From positions 1 to 22,439 of the IMG/VR virus record IMGVR_UViG_3300028920_001543: 22,439 nucleotides of DNA; one strand, given 5' to 3'. This DNA comes from a virus. Made by a program: the position numbers and the translations under genes. The notes below the pieces were generated by a model. That model was not told the origin of the DNA and did not search any database. It was given only the letters and a program-made list of their open reading frames with translations. The number at the start of each line of letters is the position of its first letter. Position 1 is the stretch's first letter. Shown here piece after piece: positions 2,065 to 20,078 of the stretch.

Positions 2065-2317
2065 GAATCACGGTGGTTTTGCTGGGGATGGTGTAGACAT
2101 TTCGTTAGTATCGATGCGGCCCGGCGTGATAGATCGCCGGGTTTTTCATGTATTTCGGCCGATCTGCGATCCGAGTTTCACAGGGAAGGAGTTCATGGGG
2201 ACCACGGAGTGGTTTTCCGTGACGTGTGAGTGTTGTCTTTCTTTACGTCCTGATCGGGATGATGAGGCGGAGAAGGACATGGAGCGGTTTTTGGAGGAGG
2301 TAGGTGGTGCTGAGTAG
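2033..2317 (+). CDS. Hypothetical protein, up to 94 aa (start uncertain)
   Basis: The frame ends at 2317 and overlaps the next gene's start, which supports translation of its 3' part. That part encodes a cysteine-containing, acidic C-terminus (TEWFSVTCECCLSLRPDRDD, then EAEKDMERFLEEVGGAE). The start at 2033 has a good GGAGG 9 bases upstream and gives 94 residues. A second possible start at 2195, behind AAGGAG at only 3 bases, gives 40 residues. The choice matters because a perfect terminator-like hairpin with a T5 run (2120-2146) lies inside the longer frame. Either the hairpin is an attenuator within a gene, or the true gene is the short one after a terminator. No family is recognised. Confidence 0.45.
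   Translation: MVRETAVHYIRNHGGFAGDGVDISLVSMRPGVIDRRVFHVFRPICDPSFTGKEFMGTTEWFSVTCECCLSLRPDRDDEAEKDMERFLEEVGGAE
2120..2146 (+). terminator. Rho-independent terminator-like hairpin
   Basis: Perfect arms CCCGGCG (2120-2126) and CGCCGGG (2135-2141) enclose an 8-base loop and are followed directly by TTTTT (2142-2146), the canonical intrinsic-terminator form. It would end transcripts carrying the small genes from 1715 on, or act as a partial attenuator ahead of the membrane-protein and packaging genes. It lies within the 94-residue reading of the gene ending at 2317, so one of the two calls may be wrong. Confidence 0.6.
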
Positions 2318-2729
2318 CCGCGTGAAATCTCTGATTTTGGTGATTTGTTGCGGTTGTTTGCTGGTGTCTCCAGCGTGGGCGGCGCTGCAGCTGACCTACA
2401 CGTGGGATCCGCCGACGACTGGTTCACCTGTGGTGGAGTATCAGGTGGAGTGGAAGACGGGTTCTGGTGATTTCGAGCCGCTGGGGGTGGTTACCGAGGC
2501 GTTGATCCGGGTAGATGTACCTGACGGTACACAGGGTTTGGTTTTGCGGGTAGCTGGTCGGGATCAGTGGGGTCGTCAGGGGTTGTGGTCGCCGCCGAGT
2601 GTACCTTGGACTGACGACGGTACTCCTGGGCCGCCTACTGAGCCTTCGATCATCGAGATCATTGCCTTGGCTGGGTTCGGTTTGCTAGCGCTGTTGATCG
2701 GGACAGTGTGGAAGGTGAGGCGGCGATGA
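2307..2729 (+). CDS. Secreted fibronectin-III-like protein with C-terminal membrane anchor
   Basis: A 140-residue protein with a clear Sec signal peptide (VKSLILVICCGCLLVSPAWA, cleavage after AWA). One FnIII-like beta-sandwich follows at about residues 28-110 (LQLTYTWDPPTTGSPVVEYQ; VEWKTGSGDFEPL; RVAGRDQWGRQG). A proline-rich linker then leads to a membrane segment (IIEIIALAGFGLLALLIGTV) and the stop-transfer tail KVRRR. The FnIII domain should face the periplasm or exterior. GTG at 2307 is chosen because GGAGGAGG lies 6 bases upstream; GTG at 2304 is the alternative. It overlaps the upstream gene's stop, and its own stop forms an ATGA with the next start, so translation is probably coupled. 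FnIII domains bind proteins or glycans; host-surface binding or superinfection exclusion are inferences. Codons are T/G-rich. Confidence 0.7.
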   Translation: MLSSRVKSLILVICCGCLLVSPAWAALQLTYTWDPPTTGSPVVEYQVEWKTGSGDFEPLGVVTEALIRVDVPDGTQGLVLRVAGRDQWGRQGLWSPPSVPWTDDGTPGPPTEPSIIEIIALAGFGLLALLIGTVWKVRRR

Positions 2730-2999: not shown

Positions 3000-3104
3000 A
3001 TGATGCAGCGGGCGTGCGCTGCTGGGGCCGGCTGGACGTTGTCGAGGCGCGTCGGGACTACGGATGAAGGCCGGCCCGTATTGCCAGCGATTGGGGTGCT
3101 CTGA
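3000..3104 (+). CDS. Possible small ORF before terS, 34 aa
   Basis: A 34-codon frame (MMQRACAAGAGWTLSRRVGT and onwards) that fills the gap between the small membrane protein and the small terminase. Its stop overlaps the next start as TGATG, as with other gene pairs here. The ribosome-binding site is weak and the protein resembles nothing known. The alternative is a 105-base untranslated leader for the packaging operon. Confidence 0.22.
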   Translation: MMQRACAAGAGWTLSRRVGTTDEGRPVLPAIGVL

Positions 3105-3565
3105 TGGCTCAACTCACGGCAGAACAACGAGAAAAAGTCCTTGAAAAAGCGCTGCGTGAAGTGGACAGCTGTCTGGGCACTCCCAATCACCTGGCTAGCG
3201 TGTGCGGGGTTTCTCGAGATGCGCTGGTCTCCATGCTGGAACTTCCCCTGGACATCTGCGAAGAGATCAAGTGGCGGCTGGCTGTCCGCAAGACGGAGCT
3301 GGTCGCAGCCAGCGAGGAGCGCCTGATGAAGGCCGCGATGGACGATAAGGGGCGCTTCAACCACATGGCCGTGTTCGCGGTGCTGAACAACATGGCGCCG
3401 CAGGAGTGGAAGTCGAAACAGGAAGTCGAGATCAAGGACGACCGCGGCTTCCAGCCGTTGACCGATGCAGAAGAGAAGAAGGTCGTTCAGGAGGCCGGGC
3501 CAACGGCCCCGTCGTTCCTGCGCGTCGTAGAAAACCAAGGTGTTGAGGACGACTCGTCTGACTGA
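3104..3565 (+). CDS. terS: Probable terminase small subunit
   Basis: A 153-residue protein of the size usual for small terminases, which bind the packaging site on phage DNA and load the large subunit. After a helical start (MAQLTAEQREKVLEKALREV) it has a helix-turn-helix-like segment at about residues 24-48 (LGTPNHLASVCGVSRDALVS). A long helical middle follows, with the segment MAAMDD-like KAAMDDKGRFNHMAVFAVLN, then NNMAPQEWKSKQ, which resembles TerS proteins. The tail is acidic and disordered. GGGGTG lies 5 bases before the ATG. The call rests on length, HTH and packaging-module context, not a diagnostic motif. It is unusual that terL does not follow directly: 6.7 kb intervenes. From this gene on, codon use shifts to C/G-ending. 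Confidence 0.6.
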   Translation: MAQLTAEQREKVLEKALREVDSCLGTPNHLASVCGVSRDALVSMLELPLDICEEIKWRLAVRKTELVAASEERLMKAAMDDKGRFNHMAVFAVLNNMAPQEWKSKQEVEIKDDRGFQPLTDAEEKKVVQEAGPTAPSFLRVVENQGVEDDSSD

Positions 3566-3589
3566 ATGTGGTCCGGCGGGGGGTGTTTA

Positions 3590-3641
3590 GGAGGGTTCAA
3601 GGCCCTCCACTGAGAAGAAGAAGTCTGGTAGTTCTACCAGA
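3590..3641 (+). repeat. Two adjacent hairpins after terS
   Basis: GGAGGG (3590-3595) pairs with CCCTCC (3603-3608) across 7 bases. TCTGGTAG (3624-3631) pairs perfectly with CTACCAGA (3634-3641) across TT. They fill most of the 104-base gap between terS and the small secreted-protein gene. No T-run follows either. They could be attenuators, mRNA-processing sites or, being next to terS, part of a packaging site; only the pairing is seen. Confidence 0.5.
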
Positions 3642-3669
3642 AAGACTGGCAGCACGAAGGAGAAAATCG

Positions 3670-3981
3670 ATGAGAGCGCTGTTGATTTCCATGCTGGTCG
3701 GCGTCCTGCTGGTCTGTGGGCTGGCTTACGCTTGGCAGACTCACCCGATCCAGTACCTGGCCGCTGACGGCGTTCTGGATCTGACCTCCGTCACTCACGA
3801 CGGGTACTTCCTGTACTCAACGCAGAATGCGTGGGTGACCCGCTATTTCCGGTCTCAGTCGGCAGACGCTATTCCGATGTTCCTGCCGGCTGGCGAGTGG
3901 TTCTTCGTCGATGCGCAGACAGACAGTCTGGCCGGCGTTGGCCTGAGTGACACCCTCTGGGTCCACCCGATGTCGAGGTAA
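3670..3981 (+). CDS. Small secreted protein, 103 aa
   Basis: A 103-residue protein with a clear signal peptide (MRALLISMLVGVLLVCGLAY, cleavage probably after AYA at residue 21). The mature part of about 80 residues looks beta-rich (VLDLTSVTHDGYFLYSTQNA, then WVTRYFRSQSADAIPMFLPA and GEWFFVDAQTDSLAGVGLSD). This could be a small jelly-roll or beta-sandwich, but no family is recognised. The ATG at 3670 has AAGGAG 8 bases upstream; an arginine-rich extension to 3568 lacks a site and would bury the signal peptide. It precedes the giant secreted protein by 6 bases, and both start with ATGAGAGC-CTG, encoding MRAL. A co-secreted partner or shared surface structure is inferred. Confidence 0.65.
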   Translation: MRALLISMLVGVLLVCGLAYAWQTHPIQYLAADGVLDLTSVTHDGYFLYSTQNAWVTRYFRSQSADAIPMFLPAGEWFFVDAQTDSLAGVGLSDTLWVHPMSR

Positions 3982-3987
3982 AGAAAG

Positions 3988-6900
3988 ATGAGAGCACTGC
4001 GCCCGCTTGCCTCGATCTTGTTTCTGGGGGTCCTGTTGGCTTGCGCTGTGGGTACTGGATCGAGGGCTGACGGCCCTCATGGCATGTATCCAGAAGGCTA
4101 CTGGCCGACGAATTTCAAGCGCTCGTCGAACCCGTTCTCCCCGATCGTAGCACAGAAGATGCTGGTCACCCCCGTCGAGGGGACCGATCACATCCTGGAC
4201 TACTATGACAACCTCGAGTCGACTGCTGACTCGGTTGTCGATATCGGAACCGACTACACGGGCTACTTCGCGTATGGCCTGTGGTCTACCCAGTCGACCG
4301 ACTCGTTCGCGATCAACAGCTCCGCCCAGGGCAAAAACTTCCGCTACGGCATGTGGGCCCCCTCGCCTGACTCCCTCAACCCATGGGACGATAGCGGTGT
4401 CCACTACGGCTCGATGGTCTACATCGACTGGAAGTCGGTCCTGCCACCTGGCTCGGACGTGATCTCCGCGAAGCTGCACTTCACTGCCGGCGGCCAGCAG
4501 AATATCGGCGCTCAGGATACCCTCGTTGCTGTTCTGATGACCAATCCAGCCGATTCCGCCTGGTATCGCTACGTTGGCGCCAATACCAGAGACTTCATGT
4601 CCTTCTGTTCCCTGATGTACCAGCGCCAGGGCGTTAACGATGCTGCAGCCGGCGATCAGGCTACCCTCACTTCTCGCGGCTTCCCCGCTAAAAGCGGCCC
4701 GGCCTGGGATCCGGAGATCACCAGCCGCACCCGTGAATGGGACTGGGGCGACTACGCCGACTGGTCCTGTGACGGCGGAGACCAAGGCTTCGGTACTGCA
4801 TCACACACAGCAGACAGCCTGTTTACTATCGATATCACAAATTGCGTCCGAGCCGCGAATGCTGGGCGCGTGAACAACGGCATCTTCCTGTACAAGAAGG
4901 ACGATTCTTCAATCGGGTATACCCAAATACGGCACTTCGACCCGACCTCGCCGGATGATAACGAGTTCGCGTTCTTCGAGATCGACTACGTCACCAGGGT
5001 CCAGAAGCCGCGCTGGCCGAACCAGGCCAAGTACGCCTTCGTCTTCTGTACCGACGACTGGCGCCGCAACGCGAATATGGCCTACAAGGCCGTTTTTGAT
5101 ACGTTCGATAGCCGGATCCCCGGTGGCGCGAAGATGACCATCTTCGGGTCTGCCAAGCACTACCCGAACGCTAACGTGCTGACCCTCGGCCAGGTACAGC
5201 AGTTCATCCGAGACGGCCACGAGGTCGGCTTCCACTCCATGTGGCACGCGAACGATGCCGGCGGCCTCGACGGATTCACCAGATACCGCGTGGCCACCGA
5301 CGAGATGATAGTCAATGAGTATACACGGGGCATGTACCCGGACACGCTCACTGCATCTGCTACCAACTGGGACAGCCTGCTATACGACTCCGACCCCGAA
5401 TGGCTGTACTACGTACTGGAAGACTCTCTCGGCGTGGACTATCGCAATCACCCGCTGGTCGGCAAGTCGATGGCCCTGCCGTTCAACATGTTTGACCCGG
5501 CCACCCTGCAGGCGATGGCCTACCACAACTACCTTGGGGTGCGCGGCAACCCGGTTGGCAACCTCACCCTGGCAGACGGGAACCGAACCTTCGGCGTGAA
5601 GGCCACTACTGGGTTCGCTGATACCGACACCATGTGGGCCTGCTGGGGCAACAGTCACGCTGAGTTTGTTAACCCGGTGAACGCGACCCTGTTGCCGCCC
5701 TGGGTTTCTTCAAATGCCCTCGTGGGCGACAGCACGGTCGCTGCAACGGTGGACGACTACATTATCAAGAACCGGGTGCGGCGCTGGGCGCGGCAGGTAT
5801 CTGCGGGCGACTTCGGTGTGTTTGGCATCTACACGCACGATCTGCGCACCGAGGCCGGCAAGACGGGCGGCTATAGCAACGGTATCGACGCTGCCGAGCT
5901 GGAGGTCATCCTCCAGGCCGTCGAGGAGACTGGCGGCTGGGTCTGTACCGTGAGCGACATGAAGCGCTGGATGCGTTCGCAGGCGGTCGCCGACTCGATT
6001 CCCAGCGGATGGGGCCAGGACGGCACTGCCTGGGACTTCACCGCCGAAGACGACAACTGGTATCTGCCGATGACGCCCGCTGGGCGAGACACCAACCGCG
6101 GCATGCTCTGGACGGCGGCGATCTCTCGAGTTACCGAGGCCGGCGAGTATCCGTATCTATCTGGTGCCTGGCGCGGGGGCCCGGCCCTGGACCGGAAGCT
6201 CCACTACAAGTGGCAGCCGCACTATGACTCTCCGACCCACCACTCGCGAGTTACTACCTGGACGGAGCTGACCGCGGCCTCGTCCTCGTTCGCTACCGCC
6301 GGCCTGATTGGCGACAACATTCCGCTCATGGCCTTTTCGGGCGACACGATCTCGTGCCGGCTGCTTTTGCAGGAGAGTGGAGGCGCCTGGTTCGCTGCGG
6401 ACAGCCTGACCTATGTCGTGCCGACCCTGCCATCGATCGTCACTCCGCTGGCTGCGGCGCCAACGCCCGAGGTTGGCCGCATGTGGCGGACCAACTACGA
6501 CCTGGACTGGTACTCGGCCGGCGCAACTCCGGCTAACCCGATGCCGGACTCGTCGACTAACGACTACCTCGACTACAAGGTCTTGCAGTGGAACCTATGT
6601 GAGGCCAGCAACTACGACATGGACCCGATCCAGTGGATCAAGAACACCCGCTCGATGTACAACGACGACTTCATGCCGGCGCTCTATGTCCACTACTTCG
6701 GGTTCCGCAAGCCGTGGGGGTCTGCCTCGGCCGGCAGCTACCAGCGCCGCATGCATGACGCACTGATTCCGTATCGACCGGTCTACATCAATGGCGACAC
6801 CGTGAGCCACTACTTCAGCGGCGACAGCAACGTCTACTGGCTCTTGAACCCCCTTCAGGAGGCCGGGATCGACTCGCTGATCTCCATCCAGATCGAGTTC

Positions 6901-9900
6901 ATGTTCCGCAACGGCTGGCTCGATTTGCCGTACACGGGCGTGTTCATCGACTGGGCTTACAGCGACTACCCGAACTGGCCGTGTGACGGCGGCGACTGCA
7001 CTGACTTCCTTGACCTGGACGTCGACGGGACAGGGCACGGGTCTGATGCCAACGAGCAGGCGGCCTACGATACGGCGGTCGATTCGTTCTTCACCAAGCT
7101 CAGGCGCAGACTGGACCACGTCAGGGGCGACGAGACTGCCCTGATCGTCAACAACGGCGATGCTGCGGAGCAGCGGGCCTCCGCAGGTGCCCTGCTCGAC
7201 GGCGAGATGATCGAGCACATCTTCAACGAACGCATGAACACCACCGAGGAGTTCGAGGCGCTCGGGCCCAGCGGGACCTACCAGCAGCGGTTCACCAATG
7301 CGCGAGTAGACCCGCCGCTTTTGATCCTGGCCGAGCAGGACACGCTCGACGGGGTCCGGGTGTCAACGGCGCTGCTGGCTGAATGCGGTGCCAACATGAG
7401 CCAGACCACCAGCACGAGCTGGTCGGATATCGCCCACCAGTACGGCTACGACTGGTTCGCGGCCAGCGATCCAGTTTTCGGGCCGGTGTACAGCACGGTT
7501 GGGTCTGAATGTACGGCGTACAGCGTCTACCCGAGCGGGTGGATTGTCGCCATGAACTTCGAGGAGGGTAGCTACACCAAGAACACGGTTCCGTACCCGT
7601 ACATCGTGTACCAGAACAACGAAGCCAACGCGATCTACGACGGCAACTGGGGAACCCTGCTGCTGGATCAGCCGGACGTTTCGATCTCGCACCCTGACAC
7701 AACCACCACGACCACGATCGGCCGTGGTGCGACCCTCGATGCAACTGCGGACTCCGTGATGGTCCTGGTGTCCAAGGATTTCGCGGCCGGTGTCATCGAT
7801 ACGTACTACTCGACCGATGACGACAGCATCCAGAACATCCGGCTTCTTCTGGGCGAGGGCGACCACATCCTGGCCACCAAGTCCATGCGGACCATTCTGG
7901 ACGGCTACGCCGGACCGTATTATTCGGCGGCCGACACGGACACTGTGCGTCTGGAGCGCGGCAGTGTCATGGAGATTGACAACGTCTCCGGGACCCTGGA
8001 GCACGGGCAGACGCTCACGATCACTGGCGTTGGCTTCGGGACGAAGGCATCGGCGCCCCCCACGGTGTTCGACTCGTTCGAGTCGGGGACCAACAACCAG
8101 GTGTTCGGGCCGAGCCCTATCGGCGATGTCGGGGAGTACTCGGTCTGGGGCAGCGAGGGCGGCAACTTCCGCCGTCCGCGCTACAGGGAGAACAGCGAGC
8201 GCGCCTGGGGCGGCGACTTCTACGCCGAGGAGCATCCACTAAGTGAGGCCGATTTTTTCACCGGCTTCTACAAGATGCACCACGACTGGGAAGATAGCTT
8301 CGGTACCAAGACGATGTATGCCTCGATGAAGGTCAGGATTACCACGAACGCTCAGGGCGGCCCGTGGGGCAGCGGCTCGTTTGTTAACCCATCCGTGTCA
8401 CAGAAGCTCTTCCGGCTGACGTCTTACAACCGTGGGCCGGGAATGCCGCCGCAGCATGGCAATCCGAACCTGTGGCTGGCGAAGTCCGGCGGCACGAGCG
8501 TGGTCGGGTACTACCTGCTCAACTCTGGCATCGGTGCCCAGGGGGCATACCTGGAGCACAACTGGTCCGACTGGACGGGCATGAATGACGTCTGGGTCGA
8601 CTGCCACCTGTGGATGAAGATCGGCACCGACGGCAACACCGATGGCCTGGCCGGGCACTTCTGGAAGGCCGAAAACGGCCTAGCGTTCAGCGTTCGCGAC
8701 TCGACTGGCATGGAGACCTATACCGAGGAGGGGCCCGATTACCCCGACGAGCTGCCGCTCATTCGTGGCCTGCGGGCCGTGGCTTGGTCCTGCCAGCCCG
8801 GCGGCTGGGAGCCTGACGAGCTGTACCTGGCGTGGGACAACCTGTATGCCGACACCTCGCTGGCCCGCGTGATCATCGGTGACAACTCCGAATACTACAC
8901 CTGCCGGACCTGGGAGCCGCAGCCGCCGACCGCCTGGGCGGATGACGAGATCCAGGTCACGGCCAACCTGAACCACTGGTTCGACAGCGAGGGCGCCACC
9001 ATCGACACGCTGTACGCGTGGGTGGTCGACACAGACAACAACGTCAGCGACCAGGACACCACGGTGGCCGGCAAGCAGGGCAAGCCGATCGCCATGACCC
9101 CGGACAGGCCGACGTTCATCAGCACGGTTGCCGGTGAGTTCAAGACGGCCTCGGCCTGTAGCGTGACGATCCGGGGCTTCAGCTTCGGTACAAAGAACCC
9201 GGCGGCTCCGCTGATCTGGGAGGACTTCGACGACTTCGCGGCGGAGTCGCGCCTGGACTCGACCCTGGCTGGCGGACAGCGGTGGAGCATTTACAGCGAC
9301 AACGATAGAGGTTTCGACATCCCACGAGCCTGCGACTGGTCGCATCGAATCAAGTACACTGGCGACATCATCGCGCGGTTCATTTATCCAGAACACAGCC
9401 ACCCGGACAACTACCAACGCGACATCATCTATAAGCCGCTCTACGGAATGTCGGCCGATCCAGACGTCGACTACCTCGGGCCGAGCGACCGTTTCTACTG
9501 GTCGATGTGGAGTCTTTCCGATTTCCCCGGCCCAGAAACGGCCGACCCCGAAACGAAGCAGTGGAAGCGTGCTCGCCTATCAGACGGGCCATACAACGCT
9601 GACACCGAGCCTTATATCGGCTGGTTCTGGCATAGAGCGTTACCAGACCCGCCGAATAACAACCCCCCCGGCCGTCCCTTTATGTGCTGGACCGACGACC
9701 AGCTGGGCTCAACAGGCTCGGCGTACTGCCCCGACCTGGTCGGCGGGCAGGCGTCGCAACAGTTCGTGTACGATATCCCCGATACGGGTGTATGGAACTG
9801 CTTCGAGATGTACGGCCAGCTTGACAGCGGAGCACAACAGTGCGATGCGCGAGTTTGGGCCTACATGAACCAAGAGGCGATCGTTGAGGAGAACGACCCG

Positions 9901-10308
9901 AAGGCCGCAAGCGTCGGGCTGTTTATCGACGATGAAAGTGGTCCCGGTGAAATGTGGGTTGGTGAGTATATACAGCAAGCCTCGCATCAATTCGAGTGCT
10001 TCTGGGATGACATCTATTTCGATGATACCTGGGCTCGGGTGATACTTGGCAACGCCGAGCAATACGACGATTGCACCTATATCCAGCTCCAGATCCCATA
10101 CTACTGGGACGACAACTTGATCTCGTTCAAGGTCAACCTGGGCGAGTGGCCGTCGGGGTACACCGGTTACCTGTACGTCGTGACCGCAGACGGGGAGTTC
10201 TCGGATGCGGATCTGTCGACGCCGGCAATTGACGGCAAGAGAGTGCTGATCTGGACTGGAGAGGGCGAGAAGCCCGGCGACGACGAGTTCGAGGAGTGGG
10301 CACCGTAG
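3988..10308 (+). CDS. Giant secreted protein: polysaccharide deacetylase-like, glycosidase-like and duplicated lectin-like modules
   Basis: A 2106-residue exported protein. Residues 1-28 form a signal peptide, either lipoprotein (LLAC, C19) or SPase I type (SRA before D28). Residues about 45-330 resemble a DNRLRE-type beta-sandwich (YIDWKSVLPPGSDVISAKLH). Residues about 340-660 resemble NodB polysaccharide deacetylases: TDDW (D356, D357), HSMWH (H416, H420) and YTHD (H617) match the metal-binding and C-terminal histidine motifs. Residues about 825-1220 resemble putative TIM-barrel glycosidases, with GVFIDW (D988) and LLDGEMIEHI (E1073). Two homologous modules of about 380 residues follow (1328-1705 and 1708-2106). 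Each opens IPT-like (VGFGTK / FSFGTK) and ends with WDNLY/WDDIY, ARVI and a short beta domain, perhaps lectin-like. Likely role: modifying surface polysaccharide. Whether it is free, lipid-anchored or virion-bound is unknown. It lies unusually between terS and terL. Confidence 0.75.
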   Translation: MRALRPLASILFLGVLLACAVGTGSRADGPHGMYPEGYWPTNFKRSSNPFSPIVAQKMLVTPVEGTDHILDYYDNLESTADSVVDIGTDYTGYFAYGLWSTQSTDSFAINSSAQGKNFRYGMWAPSPDSLNPWDDSGVHYGSMVYIDWKSVLPPGSDVISAKLHFTAGGQQNIGAQDTLVAVLMTNPADSAWYRYVGANTRDFMSFCSLMYQRQGVNDAAAGDQATLTSRGFPAKSGPAWDPEITSRTREWDWGDYADWSCDGGDQGFGTASHTADSLFTIDITNCVRAANAGRVNNGIFLYKKDDSSIGYTQIRHFDPTSPDDNEFAFFEIDYVTRVQKPRWPNQAKYAFVFCTDDWRRNANMAYKAVFDTFDSRIPGGAKMTIFGSAKHYPNANVLTLGQVQQFIRDGHEVGFHSMWHANDAGGLDGFTRYRVATDEMIVNEYTRGMYPDTLTASATNWDSLLYDSDPEWLYYVLEDSLGVDYRNHPLVGKSMALPFNMFDPATLQAMAYHNYLGVRGNPVGNLTLADGNRTFGVKATTGFADTDTMWACWGNSHAEFVNPVNATLLPPWVSSNALVGDSTVAATVDDYIIKNRVRRWARQVSAGDFGVFGIYTHDLRTEAGKTGGYSNGIDAAELEVILQAVEETGGWVCTVSDMKRWMRSQAVADSIPSGWGQDGTAWDFTAEDDNWYLPMTPAGRDTNRGMLWTAAISRVTEAGEYPYLSGAWRGGPALDRKLHYKWQPHYDSPTHHSRVTTWTELTAASSSFATAGLIGDNIPLMAFSGDTISCRLLLQESGGAWFAADSLTYVVPTLPSIVTPLAAAPTPEVGRMWRTNYDLDWYSAGATPANPMPDSSTNDYLDYKVLQWNLCEASNYDMDPIQWIKNTRSMYNDDFMPALYVHYFGFRKPWGSASAGSYQRRMHDALIPYRPVYINGDTVSHYFSGDSNVYWLLNPLQEAGIDSLISIQIEFMFRNGWLDLPYTGVFIDWAYSDYPNWPCDGGDCTDFLDLDVDGTGHGSDANEQAAYDTAVDSFFTKLRRRLDHVRGDETALIVNNGDAAEQRASAGALLDGEMIEHIFNERMNTTEEFEALGPSGTYQQRFTNARVDPPLLILAEQDTLDGVRVSTALLAECGANMSQTTSTSWSDIAHQYGYDWFAASDPVFGPVYSTVGSECTAYSVYPSGWIVAMNFEEGSYTKNTVPYPYIVYQNNEANAIYDGNWGTLLLDQPDVSISHPDTTTTTTIGRGATLDATADSVMVLVSKDFAAGVIDTYYSTDDDSIQNIRLLLGEGDHILATKSMRTILDGYAGPYYSAADTDTVRLERGSVMEIDNVSGTLEHGQTLTITGVGFGTKASAPPTVFDSFESGTNNQVFGPSPIGDVGEYSVWGSEGGNFRRPRYRENSERAWGGDFYAEEHPLSEADFFTGFYKMHHDWEDSFGTKTMYASMKVRITTNAQGGPWGSGSFVNPSVSQKLFRLTSYNRGPGMPPQHGNPNLWLAKSGGTSVVGYYLLNSGIGAQGAYLEHNWSDWTGMNDVWVDCHLWMKIGTDGNTDGLAGHFWKAENGLAFSVRDSTGMETYTEEGPDYPDELPLIRGLRAVAWSCQPGGWEPDELYLAWDNLYADTSLARVIIGDNSEYYTCRTWEPQPPTAWADDEIQVTANLNHWFDSEGATIDTLYAWVVDTDNNVSDQDTTVAGKQGKPIAMTPDRPTFISTVAGEFKTASACSVTIRGFSFGTKNPAAPLIWEDFDDFAAESRLDSTLAGGQRWSIYSDNDRGFDIPRACDWSHRIKYTGDIIARFIYPEHSHPDNYQRDIIYKPLYGMSADPDVDYLGPSDRFYWSMWSLSDFPGPETADPETKQWKRARLSDGPYNADTEPYIGWFWHRALPDPPNNNPPGRPFMCWTDDQLGSTGSAYCPDLVGGQASQQFVYDIPDTGVWNCFEMYGQLDSGAQQCDARVWAYMNQEAIVEENDPKAASVGLFIDDESGPGEMWVGEYIQQASHQFECFWDDIYFDDTWARVILGNAEQYDDCTYIQLQIPYYWDDNLISFKVNLGEWPSGYTGYLYVVTADGEFSDADLSTPAIDGKRVLIWTGEGEKPGDDEFEEWAP

Positions 10309-12062
10309 TGGCCAGAAAGCACCGCACACTTTCTGACAAACAGCGCGACGCGCTCGAGGCGCGGTTCGCCCAGGTCTGCTTCTACGGGACCCCCGAGAAG
10401 AACTACGCCGACAGCGGCCTGTGGCATTTCATCAACTACGTCTGCACGTTTGATGAGCATGACGAGGTCCGCCCGATAAAGAAGCTGCCCATCTGGGACA
10501 AGGAGTATGCCCAGATCATTCTCTACACGCTACTGGCGCACAAGATGGTGATCCTGCCCAAGTCGCGGCAGATCCTGATGTCGTGGCTGCTGGCCGCCTT
10601 CGCGTCCTGGTTCGTCCGAACTGCCCCACGAAGACGATTAATTTGGCAGAGTGAGACGGAAACCAAGGCGCAGAAGATGGTCAGCCTGGGCAGGGACGCC
10701 GTCGGAGCGGGTCGGATCGACCATATAGAACAGCACCTTCCTCAGTGGCTGCAGGACCCTCACGTGGCCAGCGGTCGGGGGAATAAGGCCGGCCTGCTCC
10801 TGTATTCTCCCAAGCCCATTGATCCATTCAGCGGGGTGAAGTGTCCCTGGTACGGCTCATCGATTTCTGCTGTGGCACAAGGAGCCCGGCAGGTCTGCGG
10901 CGATACTGTCTCGTGTTACATGGGGGACGAGGCGGCGTTCCAGGACTTGCTAGAGGAAGCTGTCGGCGCAATCTTGCCCGCGGTTAAGGGCGGCGGGCGA
11001 ATCATCCTGGCCTCGTCTGTATTTCAGGGAGCCTTCTTCACCGACATGGTGCTAGACGGCCTGGACGAGTCCGGCAAGGCGTACGACGGCACCGACTGGC
11101 TAACTGTCGGGCTCCTCCCAGACAGGAAACCTCTGCCCAACGGACAGAGATTTCGCATTAATCCGTCGGGGTACACGGTCGTTGAGACGCACTACACCGC
11201 TGACCCGGCCAAGGACCCGTCCACCAAGAAGGGCGCGGCGTGGCTTGCTGATTACAGCAAGGGCTACAAGGGTGGGATGGAGTCCAGCTCCTGGCAGACG
11301 GAGATGGAGATCAACTACGAAGCCCGCGGCGGTACGCCCATCTTCCCGTTCGCCGGCAACCCCCAGTCTCCGATCTACCGCGACGAGCACGAGGTGGACT
11401 GGTTCATCGAGAACTGCCTCATCTATGCCGGGTACGATTTCGGGCAGGTCAACCCTGCAGCGTTTGAGGTCGTTGGCTTCGACAGGACCGGAGACTCCTG
11501 GTTCATCTGGGAGCTGTACGAGCCGTGCGAGGACTACGTACAGCACTGCCGCCTTATCAAGGCGTGCCCGTACTGGGATCACATACGGTACATCGTTGCG
11601 GACCCGTCCATCCACACCCAGAAGGTCTGGACAGCGAAGGGGCAGCAGACCGTGGCCGCGCTCTTCGGAGAAGAGGGTGTCAGGATGAAGCCGGGCCGCA
11701 AGGGCCAGGACGCTGTGACCGCCATGCGCTTCAAGAGCATTTACTGGCAGGACCCGAACGACCCGCACGCCTATCTGACGCGGCACGTACCGGGCCTAAG
11801 AAAGGAGTTGTATCGCCTGCGCTGGGCTCTGCACAGGTCGCAGACCACTGCGGCATACAGGAACCAGCCAGAGCAGATTCAGCAGAAAGACAACCACGCG
11901 TGGGATGCGGTCTCGTATCTATTCGATTCGAGGCCGAAGGGGATGCGTGATCAGCTGGTCGAGGAAGTCAATCCGCATTCCATGGCCTTCGCGAGGAGAA
12001 TGATCAATGAACAAAAGCGCAGAGCCAGACAAGAGCAAGAGCACCTCCGGATCACCGCGTAA
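10308..12062 (+). CDS. terL: Terminase large subunit (ATPase and nuclease)
   Basis: A 584-residue packaging motor protein that translocates and cuts phage DNA at the portal. ATPase domain: the Walker A region is KSRQILMSW (residues 85-93), lacking the usual GKS/T; Walker B is YMGDEAAF (D207, E208); a coupling motif is ILASSV. The RNase H-like nuclease shows the three acidic positions: GYDFG (D377), VADPS (D432) and NHAWDAV (D533). Length is normal for TerL. GTG at 10308 shares one base with the stop of the giant gene, with AGGAG 11 bases upstream; GTG at 10296 is an alternative but overlaps its own purine tract. The 3' end overlaps the following zinc-ribbon gene by 56 bases. Terminase identity is secure from motifs and the adjacent portal. 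Confidence 0.93.
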   Translation: MARKHRTLSDKQRDALEARFAQVCFYGTPEKNYADSGLWHFINYVCTFDEHDEVRPIKKLPIWDKEYAQIILYTLLAHKMVILPKSRQILMSWLLAAFASWFVRTAPRRRLIWQSETETKAQKMVSLGRDAVGAGRIDHIEQHLPQWLQDPHVASGRGNKAGLLLYSPKPIDPFSGVKCPWYGSSISAVAQGARQVCGDTVSCYMGDEAAFQDLLEEAVGAILPAVKGGGRIILASSVFQGAFFTDMVLDGLDESGKAYDGTDWLTVGLLPDRKPLPNGQRFRINPSGYTVVETHYTADPAKDPSTKKGAAWLADYSKGYKGGMESSSWQTEMEINYEARGGTPIFPFAGNPQSPIYRDEHEVDWFIENCLIYAGYDFGQVNPAAFEVVGFDRTGDSWFIWELYEPCEDYVQHCRLIKACPYWDHIRYIVADPSIHTQKVWTAKGQQTVAALFGEEGVRMKPGRKGQDAVTAMRFKSIYWQDPNDPHAYLTRHVPGLRKELYRLRWALHRSQTTAAYRNQPEQIQQKDNHAWDAVSYLFDSRPKGMRDQLVEEVNPHSMAFARRMINEQKRRARQEQEHLRITA

Positions 12063-12277: not shown

Positions 12278-14245
12278 ATGCAGCGCGTTAACACCCGCAC
12301 AGCCCCGAATGCGTCAGAGTTCGTCAAGCTCTGGTTTCACCGCATTGATAAGGGCATAGCCAGGCGCGACGAAGAGCAGAAGATCTGGGACGCGAACGAG
12401 AAGTTCGAGGACATGCAGGTCCGCGCCACGATAGGCGTCGAGGGCTATGACGACGTCTGCATCAACAAGTGCGGCGCTTGGGTGGAAACGCGTGTTGCCA
12501 GCGTTGTGTACCACAGCCCGTATTTCAAGATGAAACCCATCAACACCGAGGGCTACGACCCGGTGCCGATCGTGGGCGTCGACGGCCAGCCGCGCCAAGT
12601 CTACCGCTACAAGGTGGCGGAAGGTCTTCTGAATGACATCGCCCGGCGGATAGGCGTGAAGCGCCAGCTGCGCCGCGGCGTCCACGCGGCCCAGTTCGGC
12701 TACGGCGCCTGGATGATCGGCTACACCGCCGACTTCGAGGGCGAGGATATCGGACTCCCGAAAGAAGTCGACGGGATGCCGAATCCCGAGGTCTACATGT
12801 ATGACCCGGTCACGGCGCTGCCGATGGTCGACGAGAACGAAGAGCCCATCCTGCGCCCCGAGTACCAGCGTCCCTTGCGCGAGCAGTGGTTCTGGGACTG
12901 GGTGTACTTCCGGCGCCTGATCGTCGACCCCGACGGCGAGAACGAGTTCCGCCAGCACCGCTGGATCGTGTACGAAGAGCTGGTTCCGCTGAAGGAGATC
13001 AAGGCCAACCCGCTGTACCGGAACACCTCGAACCTGAAGGCCACGCACACCGGCTACACGTCCGAGCAGGAAGACGACCACAAGTGGAAGACGGCCCACG
13101 TCGAGGATGACTTCATCCAGCAGCACGAAGACATGTGTCGCGTGTTCCACTGCTGGGATCTCGAAGAGCAAGAGTACGCCGTGGTCGTCGATGGCCATCA
13201 CCGGCATCTGCGCCGGGTGAATGTCAAGGACGCGTTTCCTGGCGTTGAGCACAGCCCGTACATCTTCTACCGGCCCAAGGAAAGAAACGGGCATTTCTAC
13301 CCCCGGCCCCCGCTAACGGATTTGGCCCCGGTCAACGAGATCTACGACCTGATGCGGCAGCTCGAGATTACGGCTGGGCGCCGCGTAGCGCGCAAGCTCA
13401 TGGTGGAGGCAGACGTCTGGGGCGAGGACCAACGTGCCCAGCTGCGCTCTAACGTCGACGTGGAGGTAATCCCCATTGAGTCTACCCGGCCGCTTTCCGA
13501 GACCATCATGGAAGTCCCGCTGTCCCCCTTGAGCAGTGACGTGTGGAACAACACGGCCCTGACAGCACAGGATTTCAATGAGGTCGGAGGACAGCCGGGA
13601 GAAAGCCGTGCCAGACCCGATGCAAAAACCGCAACGCAGGCCAAGGCCATGGTCGGTTACGACTCACTGCGCGTCGACTACCAGCGCAACCTCCTGAAGG
13701 AGGCGATTATCGAGGGCGGCGAGAAGCTGTGGAACTCGATCAAGCACAACATGACGCTCAGGCAGGCCGTCATGCTGGAGGGCAAGGAAGGGGAAGGAGC
13801 GTTCCTTGCCTTTGTCGACCCGGAAGAGATCGGCGGCGACTACATGATCGAGGTGGACGTTGAGGAGATGGCCCCGCAGGACAAGAACCTGGTTGCGGCC
13901 AACACGCTCAACGCCATCGGGGTCTTCTCCCAGGGCATGCAGACCGGGCTGTGGCGCAGCGAGGCGCTGCTACGGTCGACGCTCGACAACATCGGCATGT
14001 CCGACCCACGCATCGTCGAGGAGCTGGTCAAGATCGCCAACGAGCAGTTCCAGCTGCAACAGCAGCAGATGCAGATGGCGGCCCAGAGAGCCCAGCAGGA
14101 CCAGCAGATGAAGCAACAGGAGCAGCAGCGGCGCGACATGGAGACGGTCGCCAACCTGGCTGGCTCGATGCCCGCGGCAGAGGATGAGGCCCATGCGGCA
14201 CGCCAGCACCGCGACGACCCCGGCATGCTAGGAGGTCGGTACTAA
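12278..14245 (+). CDS. Portal protein
   Basis: A 655-residue protein of the size expected for portals of short-tailed phages. The portal forms the dodecameric ring at the capsid vertex through which terminase pumps DNA. Portal-like features include the N-terminal WFHRIDKGIARRDEEQKIWD, the wing/stem segments (VEVIPIESTRPLSETIMEVP; DFNEVGGQPGESRARPDAKT) and a glutamine-rich coiled C-terminus (residues about 590-620, FQLQQQQMQMAAQRAQQDQQ), as in P22-type barrels. The start lies one base after the zinc-ribbon stop, with AAGGAG about 11 bases upstream. The stop overlaps the next start as TAATG. Assignment rests on size, Q-rich end and position between terL and scaffold/capsid; it is a strong call. 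Confidence 0.88.
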   Translation: MQRVNTRTAPNASEFVKLWFHRIDKGIARRDEEQKIWDANEKFEDMQVRATIGVEGYDDVCINKCGAWVETRVASVVYHSPYFKMKPINTEGYDPVPIVGVDGQPRQVYRYKVAEGLLNDIARRIGVKRQLRRGVHAAQFGYGAWMIGYTADFEGEDIGLPKEVDGMPNPEVYMYDPVTALPMVDENEEPILRPEYQRPLREQWFWDWVYFRRLIVDPDGENEFRQHRWIVYEELVPLKEIKANPLYRNTSNLKATHTGYTSEQEDDHKWKTAHVEDDFIQQHEDMCRVFHCWDLEEQEYAVVVDGHHRHLRRVNVKDAFPGVEHSPYIFYRPKERNGHFYPRPPLTDLAPVNEIYDLMRQLEITAGRRVARKLMVEADVWGEDQRAQLRSNVDVEVIPIESTRPLSETIMEVPLSPLSSDVWNNTALTAQDFNEVGGQPGESRARPDAKTATQAKAMVGYDSLRVDYQRNLLKEAIIEGGEKLWNSIKHNMTLRQAVMLEGKEGEGAFLAFVDPEEIGGDYMIEVDVEEMAPQDKNLVAANTLNAIGVFSQGMQTGLWRSEALLRSTLDNIGMSDPRIVEELVKIANEQFQLQQQQMQMAAQRAQQDQQMKQQEQQRRDMETVANLAGSMPAAEDEAHAARQHRDDPGMLGGRY

Positions 14246-14724
14246 TGCCCTGGTACTCGTACCTGTGCCAGCACTGCGGCACGCTGACCGAGCTGCAGCA
14301 GTCCATCAAGGAACGGCACGACCATGCACTGTGCCGCGAGTGCGGCTTGCCGGCTGCCCGCGACTGGACGACGGACCTGCGCAGCGTGAGCCTGCAGGGA
14401 GACACGGTTGCCGGTGGTGTCAATTACGAGGGATACGACCAGGCGCTTGGTCAGCACATCAGGGGGCGCAGCCATTTGCGCGAGGTCATGAAGAGCCGAG
14501 GCCTGGAGTACTACGACCCGCCCAGCGAGGAGGCCGAGATATCGCGTGATATCAACTACTTGGTCGACCGTGGGGGGAGCAAGGATCCGCAGGGGAGGGA
14601 GGAGTTAAAGCAGCTCGCCAAGAAATCTGGTGAGCTACAAACAAAGAGGGCCTTCGAGAAGACCGAGAAGTCGGACAAGTTCAAGAAGATCCTCGAGCGC
14701 AAGATCGGCGAGGCCGATCTATAA
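14245..14724 (+). CDS. FmdB-like zinc-ribbon protein, 159 aa
   Basis: The N-terminus MPWYSYLCQHCGTLTELQQS with CQHC (C8, C11) and CREC (C30, C33) is the four-cysteine FmdB-type ribbon often found beside portal genes in phages. The remaining 120 residues carry a glycine/tyrosine segment (GGVNYEGYDQALGQHIRGRS) and a charged helical tail (KRAFEKTEKSDKFKKILERK). Translation is coupled to the portal gene (TAATG). The family's role in phages is not established; late-gene regulation or a head-assembly cofactor are both possible. The scaffold gene begins 14 bases after its stop. Confidence 0.75.
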   Translation: MPWYSYLCQHCGTLTELQQSIKERHDHALCRECGLPAARDWTTDLRSVSLQGDTVAGGVNYEGYDQALGQHIRGRSHLREVMKSRGLEYYDPPSEEAEISRDINYLVDRGGSKDPQGREELKQLAKKSGELQTKRAFEKTEKSDKFKKILERKIGEADL

Positions 14725-18794: not shown

Positions 18795-20078
18795 ATGAAC
18801 GCCCTTCGCAAGACCTGGTTTCTCTGGGCGCCGCTTCTGTTCGTGGTGCTCGTAGTCGGGCTCGACATCAGGGAGATGCAGCGTGAGGCTGAAGCGCAGA
18901 CGGTGACGGGAATTTGGCGCCGGACGGGCCTAGAAGACCTGTTCTATGGCGGCACAGACCAGGCTTTCATCTACGGCTCCGGGGACACGGTCACCACCCA
19001 GGGCCTGCTGCCGCTGGATGCTCGCTGGATGGGTGTCCAAGCCGGGGCCAACGTCACCGACAGCCTGCAGGCGGCGATTGACTCGGCCGCGGTGTGGGAA
19101 ACGGCGGTCTATCTGCCCGGCGGGTCGTACACGGTGGACTCCCTGGACGTCCCTGACGGGATGGTGCTGTATGGCGACGGCATGGGCCAGACCCAGATCA
19201 ACCATGCCCCCGGCTATACTTGCCCGCTGTTCTACAACTCCGCCGACATTCAGGACGTGCAAATAAGAGACATCGGCATTGTGATGACGGCCAACAGCGA
19301 GGCGGCCATCAAGTTCGACGACTGTGCTCTGGGGGTGTTCGAGCGCATCAGGGTCGCGGTTGGAGGATGTGACAACGCGGCCTTCATCTTGGACAGGACC
19401 GGCGGCAGTGGATACTACAACACCTTCTACGACTGCTCTGTGGCTGGCGCCGACACTCTGACCTACGGCTGGAAGTTCTTGTCGGGCGCCAACGAGAACC
19501 GCCTGATAGCCTGTCGCACCACAGGAGTAGACACAGCGGTACACATCGCTAACGCCAACGGCATCCACATCTCCGATTGCTCGTTTGAGCAGTTCGAGTG
19601 CGGCATCCGGGTGCCCAACACGGCGTCGGACAACACCTGGATAACCAACAACCGGTTCGAAGTGAACCGGGCCTGGGGCGACTGGGGTACGGGCGTTCTA
19701 GTCCCCGGCTTTAACACGGTAACCCGCCTCATGGGCAACTGGTATTCTGGCGTGGCGACCGAACTAGACGACAGCTCTCTTGTCGCCTTGCAGGTTCTCG
19801 ATCATTCAGTAACCAGCCTGCGCACGCTCAAGTTTGGTGCGCACGCAGATGCCGGGATGGCCAGCTCTCTGAACATGCGCAACTACAATATCAGGATGAA
19901 TGCGGCCTCTACTGACCCGATGATAATCTGGGGCACAGCCCCGCCTAACGGCAGCGTGTCAGCAGTTGGTGGCAGCATCTACCTGCGCGAGGACGCGAGC
20001 GGCTCCTCTGACTCGACCTTCTACATCAAGACCGGCACGGGCAACACCGGTTGGGTGTGTGTGAACGACGGGATGTAG
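18795..20078 (+). CDS. Tailspike-like beta-helix protein with N-terminal membrane/signal segment
   Basis: A 427-residue protein. Residues about 7-24 are strongly hydrophobic (TWFLWAPLLFVVLVVGLD) after a basic MNALRK, followed by REMQREAEAQ: either a signal anchor or a signal peptide cut after AEA. Residues about 75-300 form a pectate-lyase-3-type right-handed beta-helix (VQAGANVTDSLQAAIDSAAV; YLPGGSYTVDSL; GIHISDCSFEQFECGIRVPN). The C-terminus (GSIYLREDASGSSDSTFYIK; GTGNTGWVCV) matches a closing motif common in phage tailspikes and fibres. It sits between neck and tail-hub genes, where receptor-binding or depolymerase spikes occur. The membrane segment is odd for a virion spike, which normally folds in the cytoplasm and attaches through an N-terminal domain. 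Polysaccharide binding or cleavage is probable. Confidence 0.75.
   Translation: MNALRKTWFLWAPLLFVVLVVGLDIREMQREAEAQTVTGIWRRTGLEDLFYGGTDQAFIYGSGDTVTTQGLLPLDARWMGVQAGANVTDSLQAAIDSAAVWETAVYLPGGSYTVDSLDVPDGMVLYGDGMGQTQINHAPGYTCPLFYNSADIQDVQIRDIGIVMTANSEAAIKFDDCALGVFERIRVAVGGCDNAAFILDRTGGSGYYNTFYDCSVAGADTLTYGWKFLSGANENRLIACRTTGVDTAVHIANANGIHISDCSFEQFECGIRVPNTASDNTWITNNRFEVNRAWGDWGTGVLVPGFNTVTRLMGNWYSGVATELDDSSLVALQVLDHSVTSLRTLKFGAHADAGMASSLNMRNYNIRMNAASTDPMIIWGTAPPNGSVSAVGGSIYLREDASGSSDSTFYIKTGTGNTGWVCVNDGM

Follow-up and report, generated by a model that had tools for sequence, protein, structure and literature searches.

Predicted exported proteins of glycan type between terS and terL in a clade of environmental podoviruses

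Why would a phage place genes for exported proteins between the two subunits of its packaging motor? This question is raised by the IMG/VR virus record IMGVR_UViG_3300028920_001543, a linear fragment of 22,439 bases (the window, which is the whole record) that carries a block of late genes from a short-tailed phage. Its genes for the small and large terminase subunits, terS and terL, are separated by a slot that encodes a small protein and a giant one, both with predicted signal peptides. Downstream of terL follow genes for a zinc-ribbon protein, the portal, an FmdB-like zinc ribbon, the scaffold and the capsid (phrog_9953, E=1e-41), and after the capsid come decoration and connector genes, a beta-helix protein and a large tail-stabilisation-like protein. 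Earlier reading of the DNA letters alone (the original prediction) had proposed that the two slot proteins form a surface-remodelling set locked into the late packaging operon. On the evidence presented here, the chances seem about even that the slot constitutes an exported late exit-and-surface module acting on host exopolysaccharide.

The slot and its export signals

The features that define the slot in the window are the following.
3104..3565, + strand: terS (small terminase), bordering the cassette upstream; profile of positional equivalents, E=5.5e-8
3670..3981, + strand: small exported protein of 103 aa, about 82 aa when mature, probably folded as a beta-sandwich; homologues, signal peptide, ribosome-binding site
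3670..3732, + strand: signal peptide at the start of the small protein, cleavage predicted behind AYA; heuristic hydrophobic region plus AxA site
3988..10308, + strand: giant exported modular protein, 2106 aa; single open reading frame, coding score, relatives upstream of terL
3988..4047, + strand: signal peptide of the giant, cleavage predicted behind ACA, residues 16-19 (LLAC) possibly a lipobox; heuristic
10308..12062, + strand: terL (large terminase), downstream border of the cassette; phrog_2, E=3e-16, aligned with relatives

Signal peptides were called with a simple heuristic based on a positive n-region, a hydrophobic core and an AxA-type site. Both slot proteins of the window, for which signal peptides had already been proposed, pass it with a charged n-region, a hydrophobic core and an AxA-type site (MRALLISMLVGVLLVCGLAYA before W; MRALRPLASILFLGVLLACA before V). 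In the clade described below, it is likewise passed by the small proteins and by those giants that are complete, many of the sites being of textbook form: AYA, ALA, ASA, AKA and VSA. In four contigs, a signal peptide was called in 11 of 14 non-lysis slot genes versus 5 of 82 other called genes, a difference (Fisher P=1.5e-8) to be read bearing in mind that the phages are related, the genes are not independent and the calls are heuristic. Three of the five signal-peptide genes outside the slot encode one fibronectin-III relative and two beta-helix proteins. Sec export of the small protein and of the giant is well supported by these sequence features. A lipobox is not conserved among them: LLAC is possible in the window giant only, with no counterpart in other giants, and the signal peptides of the small proteins end in AxA-type sites.

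The description of terS, the two slot genes and terL as one tight same-strand operon was borne out in its reading frames, coordinates and orientation. The assignment of terS, previously a guess, is now supported through relatives. By itself, 3104-3565 has no match in library scans. Nevertheless, its positional equivalents in contigs G005, L049 and L092 match phrog_309 'terminase small subunit' (E=1e-8 to 1e-11), a profile built from the equivalents in L049, L045, L092, G005 and L005 reports 3104-3565 as the only open reading frame in the window, and a C-terminal signature, EWKSKQEVEIKDDRGF, is common to the window and its relatives. Regarding the spacing, the giant begins 6 bases after the small gene stops at 3981, and its TAG (10306-10308) overlaps the GTG start of terL by one base, as had been described; the small gene starts at 3670 (AAGGAG, 7 bases, ATG), 104 bases after the end of terS. 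The GC content by codon position (0.60/0.44/0.77 in the small gene and 0.56/0.47/0.81 in the giant) resembles that of terL and represents a normal coding signal. In three relatives, L005 (1200-1787), L049 (2283-3065) and L092 (2156-2989), the terS C-terminus is fused to a Cys-rich extension at the N-terminal side, which looks like the zinc modules of endonuclease VII/HNH (phrog_1035, phrog_2633).

Conservation of the slot and precedents for its content

The clade was gathered by using terL, portal and capsid as queries, membership being set at a terL profile score above about 500 bits; it unites about 25 distinct IMG/VR podovirus contigs with the window, and a terL tree was built. Three of these phages carry two labels (L039 = G005, L055 = G006 and L093 = G007). 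The original prediction had suggested searching related contigs for the order terS, secreted protein, giant, terL, and this search recovered exported slot proteins in eight other lineages. Indeed, an exported small protein occupies the slot in all nine lineages whose contigs show terS, slot and terL together (the window, L005, L039, L055, L127, G009, L049, L045 and L092), and in six of the nine, the window included, a large exported protein follows it. The slot proteins measure 132 and then 583 aa in L005, 126, 1822 and 499 aa in L039/G005, 122, 871 and 112 aa in L055/G006, 115 and 648 aa in L127, and 122 and ~947 aa in G009, a circle closed by a 127-base exact end repeat whose giant spans the join. 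Contigs truncated upstream retain, ahead of terL, the 3' end of genes for such proteins (L002, L003, L006, L008, L009, L013, L014, L038, L040, L053 and L093), in some cases with holin or endolysin genes in between.

The small protein is the most conserved member of the cassette. Its profile matches proteins in L005, L039, L045, L049, L055 and L092, as well as in L127 at 31 bits; the one in G009 corresponds by position and general look only. Family members have about 80-110 mature residues, are rich in beta strands and share an ending of the type DTV..(I/L)P(M/W)(D/S)R. No significant family was found for the small protein in Pfam or PHROGs. Sequence searches of the PDB gave nothing significant. 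AlphaFold gives it a beta fold at a pLDDT of 62, and a structural search with that model returned no significant relative.

These data speak for a cassette that is conserved across a clade of phages and against a chance insertion. It could be argued that it represents host-derived secreted cargo inserted without any phage role, or a chimeric assembly, and the giant's modules do have cellular relatives. This explanation is nonetheless very improbable, since the same slot and order recur in nine lineages that come from different metagenomes and show roughly 39-49% terL identity to the window, G009 is closed by its end repeat, and the giant is tightly spaced from, or overlaps, the small gene and terL. 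The idea of a chimeric contig was dropped, being contradicted by the conserved synteny.

Beyond the clade, the slot is devoid of exported proteins or holds other genes. One such outlying relative is L057, in which a probable DNA cytosine methyltransferase (444-1142, labelled from reading its sequence) lies directly before terL. Judged by terL and portal, the closest annotated genome is that of podovirus ct52p938 (MW202803). It is 22-24% identical in these proteins and has a related capsid and a similar gene order, but its terS adjoins terL and the exported cassette is absent. A terL search of 84,980 genomes found no prophage and so yielded no host. With the giant as a direct query, no match was obtained among viral contigs or phage records because the protein is too divergent, and its relatives were reached only via synteny.

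The splitting of terS and terL by exported proteins, considered unusual in the original prediction, turned out to have a clear precedent. In T7, the spanins gp18.5/18.7 (Rz/Rz1) lie exactly there, and the clade of the window likewise has envelope or exported genes at this position. In L055, the exported genes are followed by genes for a holin-like protein, a lysozyme and another membrane protein, with an overlapping Rz/Rz1-like pair placed directly before terL, and L127 carries a holin, an Rz-like and an overlapping Rz1-like gene upstream of the small exported gene, the holin and spanin labels throughout being a reading of sequence layout with no library matches. Holin-like plus lysozyme or M15 peptidase genes precede terL in L002 and L008, and holin-like or endolysin genes do so in L006 and L009. 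The T7 spanins and the lysis genes of L055 and L127 thus make the slot a known place for envelope genes. The window's own slot proteins do not have the form of spanins (an Rz with transmembrane segment and coiled coil, an Rz1 lipoprotein), as the slot holds only the beta-rich small protein and the giant; and whereas T7 has small spanins only, this clade adds a conserved small protein and modular glycan-domain proteins of 583-2106 aa. What stands of the proposed surface-remodelling set is consequently that its members are predicted to be exported, are conserved in the clade and have a content that fits a surface-glycan target, and not that the split is unprecedented.

The giant protein and the pointer to exopolysaccharide

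Several domains can be delimited in the giant of the window.
4567..4914, + strand: DNRLRE-type jelly-roll domain, aa 194-309; NCBIfam NF033679, E=5e-4, 20.1 bits (cut-off 34)
5008..6057, + strand: NodB/CE4-type deacetylase-like domain, aa 341-690; motifs and a weak Pfam match
6433..7215, + strand: alpha/beta region, aa 816-1076; BLAST E=4e-6 to the L055/G006 giant
7945..9120, + strand: TIG plus lectin/polysaccharide-lyase-like module 1, aa 1320-1711; module profile, Pfam TIG E=0.012
9124..10296, + strand: TIG plus lectin/polysaccharide-lyase-like module 2, aa 1713-2103; module profile, cellular relatives

The label 'polysaccharide-active' given earlier to this protein is appropriate for some of its parts, namely the deacetylase-like domain and the lyase-like/lectin modules, but not for the protein as a whole. 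The CE4 metal-binding motifs TDD and H(S/T)xxH are present in the window (motif 1, CTDD, at 355-357 with D356-D357; motif 2, HSMWH, at 416-420; THDL at 616) and are intact also in G007. Pfam Polysacc_deac_1 matches the window domain at E=0.17 and 12.3 bits, below the gathering cut-off of 23.1, and the positional equivalent in L093/G007 at E=1.4e-4 and 22.2 bits; the window domain is 33-35% identical to its counterpart in L009. For aa 816-1076, which found no family match and whose AlphaFold model is unusable (pLDDT 33), the sequence pattern is suggestive of what is possibly a glycosidase-like barrel.

Relatives of the giant lie upstream of terL in L003, L004, L008, L009, L013, L038 and L039, and their domain content varies. 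TIG/lectin polysaccharide-lyase-like modules occur in the window, L003 and L039 giants; the L003 protein also shows a PF14099 polysaccharide-lyase match (E=2e-4), LamG and DUF2341; the 648-aa protein of L127 is a GDSL/SGNH esterase by PF00657 (29.7 bits, cut-off 23.6); and cadherin-like repeats are found in the G005 and G009 giants. Judging from these domains, the large slot protein is modular and swapped between phages of the clade. By eye, the G009 giant resembles an SGNH esterase, a likeness that no library confirms. Conserved position, export signals, domain content and the exchange of the large proteins can all be read from the sequences, and the mix of deacetylase, esterase, lyase-like and lectin modules is consistent with proteins that target surface glycans.

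A pointer to the substrate comes from the C-terminal stretch of the second TIG module, which belongs to a family also represented in bacterial genomes. The bacterial members are 51-61% identical to the phage copy in L008 over about 75-90 residues, and of the chromosomal loci checked (L111, from Povalibacter uvarum; L113, from Krumholzibacteriota; and L114), all three place the module relative near glycosyltransferases and genes resembling XrtA/PEP-CTERM exopolysaccharide systems. The Povalibacter and Krumholzibacteriota proteins carry a module homologous to that of the phage giant, and a signal-peptide-like N-terminus is seen in L113 and L114, as in the giant; the L113 protein combines its signal peptide with a weak polysaccharide-lyase match (PF14099, E=5e-5). 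They differ in being cellular proteins with a single module, whereas the phage giant has two copies together with the deacetylase-like and other domains. As an observation on the bacterial side, L111, L113 and L114 share an exported TIG/polysaccharide-lyase-like protein in XrtA/PEP-CTERM-like loci of unrelated bacteria, with no NCBIfam match.

Proposed role and competing explanations

If the slot serves phage exit, the operon of the packaging motor would, late in infection, also yield Sec-exported proteins: the conserved small protein, rich in beta strands, accompanied in most lineages by one or two modular proteins of very large size with domains of glycan-active and glycan-binding type. These would reach the periplasm or the cell surface while virions assemble inside, and would deacetylate, de-esterify, cleave or bind the host exopolysaccharide. 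After the cell has been opened by holin, endolysin and spanins, the progeny would leave through the loosened coat and would be kept from sticking to the spent cell. Here we infer exopolysaccharide as the substrate, as well as the activity, timing and benefit of the cassette. The sequences do not tell apart the roles first envisaged, that is, stripping or masking of capsule, a block to superinfection and progeny release.

Several observations weigh against this proposal. L045, L049 and L092 have the small protein without a giant. The lysis genes of G009 and G007 are located outside the slot, so that lysis alone does not account for the exported cassette and the idea of a purely lytic role is weakened. 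L009 and L005 have degenerate deacetylase motifs, and in some phages the fold may therefore only bind. Both the export and the activity of the slot proteins are, moreover, predictions from sequence. Finally, a tailspike-like protein of the tail region also has a signal peptide, so that in this clade such a signal need not mean a non-virion role:
18795..20078, + strand: signal-peptide beta-helix, tailspike-like protein, tail region; Pfam Pect-lyase_RHGA_epim E=2e-7, AEA site

A Sec signal peptide on a tailspike-like protein is odd for a virion protein. Equivalents with a clean Sec signal peptide exist in G006 (24212-25858) and G007 (10042-11682), where it lies between the tail genes, and neither phage shows another obvious receptor-binding protein or tailspike. 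This leads to the strongest rival explanation: the virion would carry the giant and the beta-helix protein as appendages for receptor binding or depolymerisation, and their hydrophobic N-terminus would be an anchor, or else both proteins would be exported and join particles only after lysis. The modular, fast-swapping C-termini, typical of tail fibres, agree with it, as do the Pfam beta-helix/pectate-lyase matches of the window copy and the protein ends, which in our judgement resemble those of tail fibres. On the other hand, clean AxA sites stand directly behind the hydrophobic core, the giant lies between terS and terL, outside the tail block and with a Sec signal peptide, its small partner occurs without any giant, and the module's cellular relatives are exported proteins of exopolysaccharide loci. 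All in all, we regard virion appendages as unlikely, though deserving more weight than any other alternative. A further scheme is export-first assembly, in which the giant and the beta-helix tailspike, as receptor-binding appendages, would be Sec-secreted during infection, modify the coat and dock on particles outside the cytoplasm at or after lysis, the same protein acting as secreted depolymerase and adhesin; we consider it improbable.

The small protein suggests yet another explanation, superinfection exclusion, in which exported proteins would coat or modify the surface against re-adsorption, with the small protein as blocker. It is possible above all for this protein, which is present in every complete slot and stands alone in L045, L049 and L092. 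However, genes placed with terminase in the late operon would come late for exclusion, the enzyme-like partners of 583-2106 aa far exceed in size the exclusion lipoproteins known to us, and the lipobox is not conserved. Overall, we regard it as rather unlikely, falling between virion appendages and export-first assembly.

Compared with known systems, the proposed exit module resembles phage capsule/exopolysaccharide depolymerases and O-antigen deacetylases (tailspikes) in that glycan-modifying classes are swapped among related phages, and differs from them in its signal peptides and in the location of its genes in the packaging block. To our knowledge, the phage tailspikes of depolymerase and deacetylase type belong to the virion tail and lack signal peptides. 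Neither phage depolymerases nor exported envelope genes between terS and terL are new in themselves; what is new is the presence in this slot of large exported glycan-type proteins with a conserved small protein. The small protein, the L055 giant and the beta-helix protein had no match among INPHARED phages, no isolate of the phage collection has the cassette, and the literature on signal peptides with phage tails, depolymerases and exported carbohydrate enzymes yielded no such description, many subscription papers being outside its coverage.

Phage depolymerases are usually seen as tail parts working on the way in. If the proposed role is true, some environmental phages would remodel the host sugar coat on the way out, by means of a soluble or surface-bound enzyme, and whether phages must cut the coat to leave becomes a testable question. 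The slot also names a family of small proteins (about 100 aa) with a member in each slot observed in full, and offers a locus for mining new exopolysaccharide enzymes. Were the tail appendages themselves exported, one of the basic rules of how tailed phages assemble would have to be revised.

Another predicted exported protein lies next to the cassette:
2304..2729, + strand: exported fibronectin-III protein directly upstream of terS; signal peptide (heuristic)

A small exported fibronectin-III protein is found in four clade phages at varied positions. The L055/G006 copy (13663-14001) is inside the cassette, matches Pfam fn3 at E=4e-7 and is 39% identical to the window copy; the G005 relative (1534-2385) is upstream of the small protein, and that of G009 (25976-26311) is on the opposite strand (-). 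In L093/G007, terL occupies two overlapping reverse frames (1192-1938 and 1926-2894), reflecting a sequencing error or a genuine frameshift. The FmdB-like zinc-ribbon gene of the window (14245-14724) recurs between portal and scaffold in most clade members.

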